Assembly (NCBI RefSeq): GCF_024345415.1
Contig: NZ_JAGQBB010000015.1
Coordinates: 1 to 64,000, forward strand
Length of the DNA: 64,000 nucleotides
Source of the DNA: Synechococcus sp. Tobar12-5m-g
GTDB lineage: Bacteria; Cyanobacteriota; Cyanobacteriia; PCC-6307; Cyanobiaceae
Direction: 5' to 3'
A model generated the notes under the pieces. That model was not told where the DNA came from. It saw only the letters and a program-made list of their open reading frames with translations, and made no database searches. Position numbers and translations under genes: made by a program. Of the stretch, positions 16,908-19,582 are shown piece by piece. Every line of letters starts with the position of its first letter. Within the stretch, counting starts at the first letter, position 1.

Positions 16908-18185
16908 ATGGCCACACTGAGCGGGCGGAGGCGGGGCGTGCTCACCAAAGCGCGCCCGGCCCGGCGCCACCTGCTGCACGGCGTGGACCTGGTTCTCTGG
17001 GGCATCCCCCTGGCGATGACCTTTCTGGCCGGGATCCTGATCGCCAGCACCCAGCGCCAGGCCGATTACGCCGACTGGTACCAGCACTGGATCACCGGAA
17101 TGGTGGGGTTGGGCCTGGCCCTGCTGCTGGCCAGGCTGCCCCTGCAGCGCCTCAACGCCCTGCTGCTGCCGCTCTATGGCCTCACCGTGGCCAGCCTGAT
17201 CAGCGTGCGCTTCATCGGCACCTACGCCCTCGGTGCCCAGCGCTGGGTGAACATCGCCGGCTTTCACGTCCAGCCGTCGGAGTTTGCCAAGCTCGGCGCC
17301 ATCCTGCTGCTGGCGGGCGTTCTGTCCCGCTATCCCATCGAGCGGCCCGTCGACCTGATCAGGCCGACGGGGGTGTTCCTGGTCCCCTGGGTGCTGGTGT
17401 TCATCGAGCCCAACCTGGGCACCTCCCTGGTCTTCGGCGCCGTGCTGCTGGTGATGCTGTTCTGGGCCGGCATGCCCCTGGCCTGGGTGGTCCTGCTGCT
17501 CTCGCCGCTGGCCTCGGCGATCCTGGCCGGCACCGTTCCATGGGCGCTGCTGGTGTTGATTCCGCTGATCGGCGTGCTCGCCTACCGCTCCCTGCCCTGG
17601 AAACGCACCGGCCTGGCCATCGTGCTGGCGGTCCAGGGCCTGGCCTCCGTGCTCACCCCCTACCTCTGGCAGCACGGCCTGAAGGCCTATCAGCGCGACC
17701 GGCTGGTGATGTTTCTCGACCCCTCCAAGGATCCGCTCGGTGGGGGCTATCACCTCCTGCAAAGCAAGATCGGGATCGGATCCGGCGAGCTGTGGGGGAC
17801 CGGCTTGATGCACGGACAGCTGACCAAGCTTCGGTTCATCCCCGAGCAGCACACCGATTTCATCTTCAGCGCCCTCGGGGAGGAAACGGGCTTCATCGGT
17901 TCGATGCTGGTGGTGATCGGCTTCGTCGCGCTGATGTGGCGGCTGCTGCAGATCGCCGGCAAGGCCCGCTCCGACTTCGAGTCCCTGGTGGTGGTGGGCA
18001 TCGGCGCCATGGTGATGTTCCAGGTGGTGGTCAACATCTTCATGACGATCGGGCTGGGTCCCGTCACCGGCATCCCCCTGCCCTGGATGAGCTATGGCCG
18101 TTCCTCCATGCTGGTGAACTTCATCGCCCTCGGCCTCTGCGCCTCGGTTCATCGGCGCAGCCGCTCCAGCCAGGGGGGGTGGTGA
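16908..18185 (+). CDS. rodA: Rod shape-determining peptidoglycan polymerase RodA
   Basis: SEDS-family glycosyltransferase of the elongasome, 425 residues, about ten membrane segments. Conserved signatures: RWVNIAGFHVQPSEFAKLG, IEPNLGTSLVFG, DPSKDPLGGGYHLLQSKIGIGSG, GTGLMHGQLTKLRFIPEQHTDFIFSALGEE (split here as successive motifs) and GPVTGIPLPWMSYGRSSM. The QHTDFIF motif is typical of RodA rather than FtsW. The basic N-terminal leader precedes the first membrane span. The stop overlaps the GTG start of the sensor-kinase-like gene, so the two are coupled. Confidence 0.95.
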   Translation: MATLSGRRRGVLTKARPARRHLLHGVDLVLWGIPLAMTFLAGILIASTQRQADYADWYQHWITGMVGLGLALLLARLPLQRLNALLLPLYGLTVASLISVRFIGTYALGAQRWVNIAGFHVQPSEFAKLGAILLLAGVLSRYPIERPVDLIRPTGVFLVPWVLVFIEPNLGTSLVFGAVLLVMLFWAGMPLAWVVLLLSPLASAILAGTVPWALLVLIPLIGVLAYRSLPWKRTGLAIVLAVQGLASVLTPYLWQHGLKAYQRDRLVMFLDPSKDPLGGGYHLLQSKIGIGSGELWGTGLMHGQLTKLRFIPEQHTDFIFSALGEETGFIGSMLVVIGFVALMWRLLQIAGKARSDFESLVVVGIGAMVMFQVVVNIFMTIGLGPVTGIPLPWMSYGRSSMLVNFIALGLCASVHRRSRSSQGGW

Positions 18186-19582
18186 GCGGCACGACCCTGC
18201 ATCAGCTGAGGCAGCAGCTGGCCGAGGGGGTCCCCCCAGGACGGGGAGACGAAGACAGCGTTCGGCGCCAGTGGTGGGCGGCCCTCGCCACCCTCCAGGA
18301 AGACTTCCTGCTGCCGCTCCAACCGCTCACGGGGGTATGGATCGCCTCGCCCCTGCCGGCTCTCTACGAACCCGAGCTGTTGCGGCAACTGCAAGGGTGG
18401 GTGTGGACACCGGCCGAGGTCGGCACTTTGCTGGAGCATCCAGCTCCGCTGCTGCCCGGAGGCCTCGGTGGCACCGCCAGGCCCGCCGCGGCAAGCCCCT
18501 CCCATTTCGAGCGGCTGATCCTCGAGCCGGACGACGGCACCGATCCGTTCCTGCTGCTGTTCACGCCCCAGCTCCAGCTCGCCATGGCCCTGGAAGGGGA
18601 GCCCCAGCGGCGGCGCTTGGTCCTGCGCTTCGACCCCGCCACCCTGACGGAAGCCCTGCGGCTGGTCGATGAACGCCTGCAGAGCCGCAGTCCCGAGGCG
18701 GCCAGGCGCCTGCGTGGCGCCCTGCAGGGGTTGGGGGCGTTGCGCAGTGAGGAGAAGACGGCCCTGACCTTCTGGCCCCGGCTGGGGGAACGGCTGGCGG
18801 CGATGGCGCCCAGCGTCACCCTGCAGCCGGTGGTCCGGGCTGACACACGCCGGGATGGGGAGCGGGAGGCCGAGCCCAGCAGCGAACAGGCCCGGGGGGA
18901 ACTGGCCCTGCTCGAAGCGCTCACCCATGAGGTGCGCACGCCGTTGGCCACGATCCGGACCCTGATTCGCCTGCTGTTGCGCCGCAGTGACTTGCCCGAG
19001 GCGGTGCGGCAACGGCTGGAGCAGATCGACGGTGAATGCAGCGAACAGATCGACCGGTTCGGTCTGATCTTCCATGCCGCCGAACTGCAGCGGCGGCCCC
19101 GCCCCCGCCAGGACCTGGCCCGCACCGATCTCGCCGCGCTGCTGTCCCAGCTCCAGCCCCTCTGGGAGCGGCAGCTGGGGCGACGGGGCCTGCTTCTGCG
19201 CCTGGAGATCGAACCCCAGTTACCGCCGGTGATGAGCGATCCCAGCTTGCTGGAAACCATGCTCGGCGGATTGATCGATCGGTTCACCCGCAGCCTCCCC
19301 TCCGGAGCTGCCGTGTTGATCCGCCTGCAGCCCGCCGGGTCGCGGCTGAAACTGCAGCTCAGCTGTGTCGACCCTCCCAACGAAGAGGTCGCCGCCCAAC
19401 CCGCCCAGGCCGCCGTGGGGCCGGTGCTGAGCTGGGATCCGCTGACCGGAAGCCTTCAGCTCAGCCATCGCGCCACCCAGCGGCTCTTCCACAGCCTGGG
19501 TGGCCGCCTGACCGAGCGGGCCGGGCAGGGCCTCACGGTGTTCTTCCCGCTGGCCAGTGCCACGGCCTGGCCCGAGGCCTGA
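18182..19582 (+). CDS. Histidine-kinase-like protein with degenerate ATPase domain
   Basis: 466 residues from GTG 18182, which overlaps the rodA stop as GTGA. The N-terminal 230 residues carry no recognised sensor domain and no membrane span. A HisKA dimerisation segment follows with the H-box LTHEVRTPLATIR (His249). The HATPase part is eroded: where the N-box should have two Asn it reads MLGGLIDRFTRS. The DxGxG box is absent, replaced by DPPNEEV. Only the final helix-strand LFHSLGGRL resembles a kinase. It may not bind ATP and could act as a phosphoacceptor or scaffold. The rodA coupling suggests a cell-wall or division role (inference). Confidence 0.75.
   Translation: MSGTTLHQLRQQLAEGVPPGRGDEDSVRRQWWAALATLQEDFLLPLQPLTGVWIASPLPALYEPELLRQLQGWVWTPAEVGTLLEHPAPLLPGGLGGTARPAAASPSHFERLILEPDDGTDPFLLLFTPQLQLAMALEGEPQRRRLVLRFDPATLTEALRLVDERLQSRSPEAARRLRGALQGLGALRSEEKTALTFWPRLGERLAAMAPSVTLQPVVRADTRRDGEREAEPSSEQARGELALLEALTHEVRTPLATIRTLIRLLLRRSDLPEAVRQRLEQIDGECSEQIDRFGLIFHAAELQRRPRPRQDLARTDLAALLSQLQPLWERQLGRRGLLLRLEIEPQLPPVMSDPSLLETMLGGLIDRFTRSLPSGAAVLIRLQPAGSRLKLQLSCVDPPNEEVAAQPAQAAVGPVLSWDPLTGSLQLSHRATQRLFHSLGGRLTERAGQGLTVFFPLASATAWPEA

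Follow-up and report, generated by a model that had tools for sequence, protein, structure and literature searches.

A cyanobacterial histidine pseudokinase gene with an invariant phosphoacceptor histidine and a degenerate ATP site

The locus

The gene considered here lies in a stretch of 64,000 nucleotides (nt) from Synechococcus sp. Tobar12-5m-g (contig NZ_JAGQBB010000015.1, positions 1 to 64,000 of the forward strand), the whole of which is called the window below. By its sequence the gene encodes a histidine pseudokinase, that is, a histidine kinase (HK) homologue in which the phosphoacceptor histidine is kept while the residues for ATP use are lost. The gene, its parts and its neighbours are as follows, DHp being the dimerisation and histidine phosphotransfer domain and CA the catalytic and ATP-binding domain.

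18182-19582, + strand: histidine pseudokinase, 466 amino acids, GTG start; HisKA is the sole Pfam domain; a core cyanobacterial gene
18182-18781, + strand: N-terminal region, residues 1-200, a putative diverged DICT-like sensory domain with its homologous core at residues 106-170
18881-19093, + strand: DHp (HisKA) helices, residues 234-304; Pfam HisKA at 243-286, model helices at 234-266 and 273-304
18926-18928, + strand: codon CAT of the phosphoacceptor His249, a histidine in 174 of 174 homologues
19109-19561, + strand: degenerate CA domain of Bergerat-like fold, residues 310-460, lacking the N-box Asn, DxGxG and GxGLGL
16908-18185, + strand: rodA (TIGR02210 rodA_shape, 363.1 bits, cut-off 336.7), whose TGA stop at 18183-18185 overlaps the next start codon
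19732-20163, + strand: psaD, the downstream neighbour (Pfam PsaD, 234.7 bits)

The overlap between the rodA stop and the pseudokinase start, already pointed out in a preliminary description of this DNA made from its letters, is 4 nt long (GTGA).

Loss of the ATP site and conservation of the phosphoacceptor

The HisKA match of the window protein scores 31.5 bits (Pfam cut-off 26.9), and the H-box, ALTHEVRTPLATI, is intact and contains His249. No Pfam match to HATPase_c was found in the protein at an E value of 1 or better, and a genome-wide HATPase_c scan identified 12 places in the genome, none of them at the pseudokinase locus. In place of the two N-box asparagines stand G363 and R367, CVDPPNE occupies the D-box position, and GxGLGL was not found in the protein. 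Compared with an active HisKA-type kinase, the protein has the H-box histidine and lacks the N-box Asn, DxGxG (G1) and GxGxG (G2). The preliminary description had proposed a histidine-kinase homologue with an intact H-box and without ATP-binding motifs, and both parts of that proposal are borne out.

The same pattern was found across an alignment of 174 homologues, comprising 94 genome loci (including the window copy, L009) and 80 contigs, with some strains perhaps represented twice. His249, Thr253, Pro254, Gln289, Arg292, Gly423 and Gly440 are invariant, and Glu250 is present in 173 of the 174, the sole pseudokinase with Ser in place of this Glu being encoded at L076:4482-5999. The first N-box Asn occurs in one homologue and the second in 24, none of these from the window's own family (f1, with the named members Synechococcus, Cyanobium and Prochlorococcus); a reading in which every homologue has lost both asparagines is thereby ruled out. 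The D-box column holds 18 different residues, none of them conserved, a DxGxG string appears in one homologue (L012) and looks like chance, and no GxGLGL-like string occurs in the alignment. Because His249, Thr253 and the other listed residues are invariant and the N-box and D-box columns have decayed, the phosphoacceptor side is under strong selection and the ATP side is not.

That the protein might be an active kinase with a diverged ATP site missed by these motifs is very unlikely. The Bergerat-like fold of the model described below, the second N-box Asn retained in 24 homologues and the weak HATPase_c scores seen in four of five homologues scanned (14.3-22.8 bits, under the cut-off of 26.4) would agree with it. 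Set against these are the missing DxGxG and GxGLGL, the D-box column without a conserved residue, and the report that Synechocystis Hik2 loses autophosphorylation when Gly is changed to Ala in G1 or G2 (PMC4751278).

A family profile (A2; threshold E 1e-50 or better, four candidates scored per genome) found the pseudokinase in 369 of 388 Cyanobacteriia genomes, including 321 of the 334 high-quality ones, and in 154 of 160 genera; nearly all genomes that have it gave one match. Seven of the 19 genomes without it belong to a single genus, g49. Two genomes without an orthologue, G003, whose contig stops inside rodA in a search with RodA, and G016, where the RodA search yields FtsW-like matches only (41%), are likely cases of an assembly gap, and in G051 and G284 the profile search also found no orthologue. 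No viral relatives of the pseudokinase were confirmed. Judged by these sequences the degeneration is family-wide and ancient rather than a product of chance, which answers the question raised in the preliminary description of whether it is common to the orthologues, and a local pseudogene is ruled out by the conservation across the 174 homologues and 369 genomes.

A total of only five sensor histidine kinases has been reported for Prochlorococcus MED4 (PMC2663038), and a marine survey counted kinases by their HATPase domain (PMC6365647). Counting as described there would miss the pseudokinase. A sensor-kinase homologue retained even by the smallest cyanobacterial genomes is a pseudokinase with an invariant phosphoacceptor.

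Predicted fold

An AlphaFold2 model of the whole protein, built with 54 homologues, has a mean predicted local distance difference test (pLDDT) score of 86.2. The top Foldseek match of its DHp and CA domains is RetS (7n0e_B, E 2.7e-10), and the top match in a VIA-align comparison is DivL (4q20_B; Z 16.0, root-mean-square deviation (rmsd) 6.3, 213 residues aligned), with RetS at Z 14.8 and many active kinases ranking close behind DivL. Isolated CA domains also match the model, for example ThkA (3a0w_B; Z 15.0, rmsd 3.1, 136 aligned). As modelled, the pseudokinase keeps a Bergerat-like fold while the nucleotide residues are gone. The preliminary description had taken a functional Bergerat fold in the model as evidence against degeneration, and the outcome is mixed, the fold being present and its nucleotide residues absent. 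In its predicted form the protein has the HK fold with DHp and CA domains and has lost the catalytic residues, as expected of a histidine pseudokinase of the DivL and RetS kind; such pseudokinases are a known class (PMC12189002).

The N-terminal region and a kinase without the phosphoacceptor histidine

The N-terminal region of the pseudokinase gave an hhalign probability of 93.6% (E 2.1e-7, residues 106-170) against the DICT domain of a second type of cyanobacterial kinase, described below and termed the DICT kinase, compared with 0.7% at most in 30 column shuffles used as a control and 0.1% against the GAF domain of Hik2. No Pfam match to GAF was found in the window protein, which is thus not a GAF protein by this measure, nor was there a match to DICT (PF10069) at its gathering score; two of five homologues scanned score 14.1 and 15.6 bits for DICT (cut-off 23.8) and three have no match. 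The N-terminus is therefore a diverged DICT domain by profile comparison of sequences and not by the Pfam cut-off. Its fold was modelled with confidence (residues 1-210, pLDDT 89), and a Foldseek search with it returned no match at E 0.001 or better; in VIA-align the best score was Z 6.9 for a TrmB sugar-binding domain, followed by PLD-like folds, which is in the range of chance.

The DICT kinase, with the order DICT-HisKA-HATPase, was found in 35 of 292 genomes of the phylum (E <1e-60), all 35 among the 103 genomes of the class outside f1 that were sampled. Its H-box residue, read in 30 of the 35, is Gln in 24, Arg in four, Glu in one and His in one, and all 30 keep DxGxG, GxGLGL and the second N-box Asn. 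The sole copy with His is L106; L103, the row closest to it in the tree, has Gln. The pseudokinase is likewise present in all 35 genomes, which is weak evidence of a partnership since nearly all genomes of the class have it. In 12 of the 35, belonging to eight families, the two genes lie 3.3 kb or less apart, always tail-to-tail, and G041 (L063), from another sample, provides a further tail-to-tail case. A DICT domain was found in none of 37 f1 genomes and in 22 of 23 others. In a tree of 87 rows the DICT partner forms a separate clade, and the pseudokinase is not its sister group; the tree thus gives no evidence that either arose recently by duplication of the other.

Linkage to a Hik2-type kinase and a NarL-type regulator

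The pseudokinases holding the deepest place in the pseudokinase clade, those of genomes G048 and G039, stand in operons with other signalling genes. In G048 the pseudokinase is followed after 1 nt by a short Hik2-type kinase and, after 1 nt more, by a NarL-type response regulator; G039 has the same gene order with gaps of 34 nt and 23 nt, the former counted to the first TTG (109 nt if counted to the first ATG). In both genomes the short kinase is the genome's best match to a picocyanobacterial Hik2 candidate, and the 87-row tree places both within the Hik2 clade (98/91), apart from the branch uniting the 18 remaining Hik2. The idea, taken from best BLAST hits, that these short kinases were ancestors of the DICT partner was dropped on account of this placement. 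The pseudokinases form a clade of their own (100/100), apart from Hik2, and do not belong to the Hik2 clade.

The name Hik2 is based on the H-box of these kinases, LLHQLRNP, which agrees with the H185Q primer used for Synechocystis Hik2 (PMC4751278), and on their domain order. Among three Hik2 candidates scanned, two have the order GAF-HisKA-HATPase and the third, from a picocyanobacterium, has HisKA and HATPase without a GAF match. The regulator of the operon carries Response_reg and GerE domains, and its orthologue was found in 58 of 60 genomes searched (E 1.3e-65 or better), the exceptions, G022 and G025, both being less than 66% complete. The name Rre1/Ycf29 for this regulator rests on the spread of its orthologues and on the literature, in which Rre1 is described as a LuxR/NarL-type regulator preferred by Hik2 (PMC13421787) and rre1 as the ycf29 homologue (PMC2677595). 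Neighbouring genes in these deep-branching genomes indicate a circuit for signalling light and stress, and not cell-wall building.

A Hik2-type gene with the order GAF-HisKA-HATPase (36% identity) was also observed at L341:4530-5681 in G051 (f16). Thermostichus has been covered by a published survey and reported to be without Hik2 (PMC9953108).

Resemblance of DHp helix 1 to that of Hik2

The part of DHp helix 1 from H+7 to H+20 was compared by BLOSUM score per position with 44 Hik2 and 37 background kinases. The pseudokinase scores 1.63 against Hik2, and against the background kinases a mean of 0.49 and a maximum of 1.12; 43 of the 44 Hik2 lie above the background maximum, as do 38 when f1 pseudokinases alone are used and 43 when those outside f1 alone are used. 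Scores for individual other kinases are: NblS 0.28, SasA -0.31, SphS -0.26 and the DICT partner 0.54. At the docking positions, taken as H+8, H+11 and H+15 from A268, A271 and T275 in the titles of an HK853 rewiring entry, Thr at H+11 is common to the pseudokinases (166 of 175) and Hik2, while at H+8 the pseudokinase has Thr and Hik2 Ala, and at H+15 Ser stands in 117 of 175 pseudokinases where Hik2 has Leu. The match at these positions, as read from the sequences, is thus partial, one of three agreeing.

A helix of this kind, together with RetS and DivL as the nearest solved structures, would also suit a protein that forms heterodimers with Hik2 or another kinase, as a scaffold or an allosteric brake, and takes no phosphoryl group on its own histidine, comparable to the DivL-CckA and RetS-GacS pairs described in a review (PMC12189002). 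A pure scaffold should tolerate the loss of His249, yet this residue is present in every one of the 174 homologues, and we regard such a role as quite improbable.

Linkage to rodA and psaD

On the strength of the overlap with rodA, the preliminary description had suggested a wall-related signalling scaffold. Within f1, rodA lies upstream on the same strand at 53 of 54 loci, and at 46 of the 53 its stop overlaps the first in-frame start of the pseudokinase by 1-10 nt (exactly 4 nt in 30); in L057 rodA adjoins the pseudokinase, and in L049 it ends 415 nt upstream. psaD lies downstream on the same strand at all 54. Outside f1, where 40 loci were surveyed with a shorter flank of median 4.5 kb and minimum 45 nt, rodA was found in the flanks of one locus (L073) and psaD in one (L101, at 3.3 kb).

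A pseudokinase acting with RodA in wall signalling would accord with the overlaps in f1 and with the order hemF-mrp-rodA-pseudokinase, which recurs at the single non-f1 locus L073. That rodA flanks the gene at only one of 40 loci elsewhere, that psaD is as tightly linked as rodA within f1, and that mrp stands in place of rodA in L012 all count against it. The coupling to rodA is a local arrangement and does not define a partner of the pseudokinase family; a wall function through RodA was accordingly rejected as the principal explanation, and we give it a very slim chance of being correct.

In the L012 case (L012:2877-4004, f1 genome G021) mrp itself overlaps the start of the pseudokinase, with no rodA between the two. 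A gene of the histidine-phosphatase superfamily directly follows the pseudokinase at three loci (L067:6143-6790, L070:5633-6406 and L073:4058-4876), with an overlap in L067 and L070. In NCBIfam the best match of the L067 copy is CobC, below the cut-off, and its SixA score is weak.

Possible role in the Hik2-Rre1 circuit

The operon context, the helix resemblance, the invariance of the histidine and the existence of a His-less kinase suggest, with moderate confidence, that the pseudokinase is an auxiliary phosphoacceptor or phosphatase subunit of the circuit formed by Hik2 (the chloroplast sensor kinase, CSK) and Rre1, with His249 phosphorylated in trans. RetS and DivL, regulatory or pseudo-kinases, are among the nearest solved structures, in keeping with this. 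The pseudokinase would pair with an ATP-competent kinase, namely Hik2, with the His-less DICT kinase as a second such partner in some lineages; His249 would receive a phosphoryl group in trans; and the pseudokinase would then hand it to Rre1, or strip Rre1 by means of its HExxT motif, under the control of its own sensor domain.

Several observations weigh against this auxiliary role. The names Hik2 and Rre1 for the genes in the genomes analysed rest on homology, domain make-up and literature and not on a named record, the operon with Hik2 was seen in two genomes only, and no pseudokinase was found within about 5 kb in 14 other Hik2 neighbourhoods outside f1. In genus g49 the pseudokinase is missing, yet Hik2-type and Rre1-type genes occur in G051, a member of that genus; the circuit can thus dispense with the pseudokinase. 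Two of the three docking positions differ from Hik2, and the second N-box Asn survives in some homologues. As for the DICT kinase, in ten of its 35 genomes it lies on the same contig at least 25 kb away and in 13 on another contig, and it was not found in any of 36 f1 genomes or in 68 of the 103 other class genomes.

The chief competing explanation is a dedicated phosphatase of phosphorylated Rre1, in which the HExxT-bearing DHp dephosphorylates the regulator, the dead CA domain serves as a conformational lever and His249 is not a phosphoacceptor. The motif itself would favour it, with Thr at H+4 in every one of the 174 homologues and Glu at H+1 in all but one, and no kinase partner would be needed, hence a phosphatase fits the picocyanobacteria without a DICT kinase. 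Strict invariance of the histidine is not required by all HisKA phosphatases, which counts against the idea. It also leaves the His-less kinase beside the pseudokinase in 12 of 35 genomes unexplained, and the situation in g49 and the 14 Hik2 neighbourhoods is as awkward for it as for the auxiliary subunit. In its favour, in vitro work describes phospho-Rre1 as relatively stable (PMC4751278), and a phosphatase may therefore be missing. A phosphatase of this sort is, on balance, unlikely.

A wider form of the auxiliary role can be put forward tentatively, and remains doubtful as a whole. The pseudokinase may be one part of a split, reciprocally degenerate kinase, a near-universal histidine half served in trans by separate ATPases. 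In the ancestral operon this would be Hik2, and several lineages would also use the His-less DICT kinase, which would work only through the pseudokinase. The redox circuit of Hik2/CSK and Rre1, ancestral to chloroplast gene control, might then have a third component that has been overlooked, the pseudokinase. If membership in the Hik2-Rre1 circuit is true, the pseudokinase becomes a new candidate modulator of Hik2, and the two proteins would offer a clean natural case of complementary half-kinases. A review describes the direction of Hik2 redox control as unresolved and suggests that in vivo modulators absent from reconstituted systems are part of the cause of the conflict (PMC13421787).

Comparison with known systems

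No description of this pseudokinase family was recognised in the literature searched, which left subscription papers mostly outside, and it may figure as an ordinary histidine kinase in Ashby and Houmard (2006) and Mary and Vaulot (2003).

DivL of Caulobacter has lost the His. The window protein, in contrast, keeps its His and has lost the ATP motifs, and DivL is named a tyrosine kinase in the title of its Protein Data Bank entry. The two have in common that DivL is a pseudo-histidine kinase with the HK fold (PMC12189002) and is the best VIA-align match of the model. RetS of Pseudomonas, the best Foldseek match, is likewise a regulatory HK homologue that acts on another kinase; its target is GacS (PMC12189002), whereas the putative partner of the pseudokinase is Hik2, together with the adjacent His-less kinase in some lineages.

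Hik2/CSK and the pseudokinase are both cyanobacterial HisKA proteins, with the nearest DHp helix 1 among the kinases compared and a common operon in G048 and G039. Hik2-type kinases keep the N-box, a DxGxG-like motif, GxGLGL and usually GAF, which the pseudokinase does not. The CSK of plants and green algae is reported to show the opposite loss, having no conserved His (PMC4751278). The DICT-domain histidine kinases (PF10069) share the DICT-HisKA-HATPase order with the pseudokinase (hhalign 99%, E 2.8e-18, columns 112-480) and have the reverse defect, the ATP site being kept and the His lost in 29 of 30.

In the pair Rv0600c/Rv0601c of Mycobacterium, which belongs to one lineage, the ATPase comes from one protein and the His from the other. 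The cyanobacterial arrangement differs in that the His half is near-universal in the class and the ATPase half occurs in 35 of the 103 class genomes sampled outside f1. The likeness lies in two histidine kinases that are said to cooperate with one regulator, TcrA in the mycobacterial case (PMC9274095).

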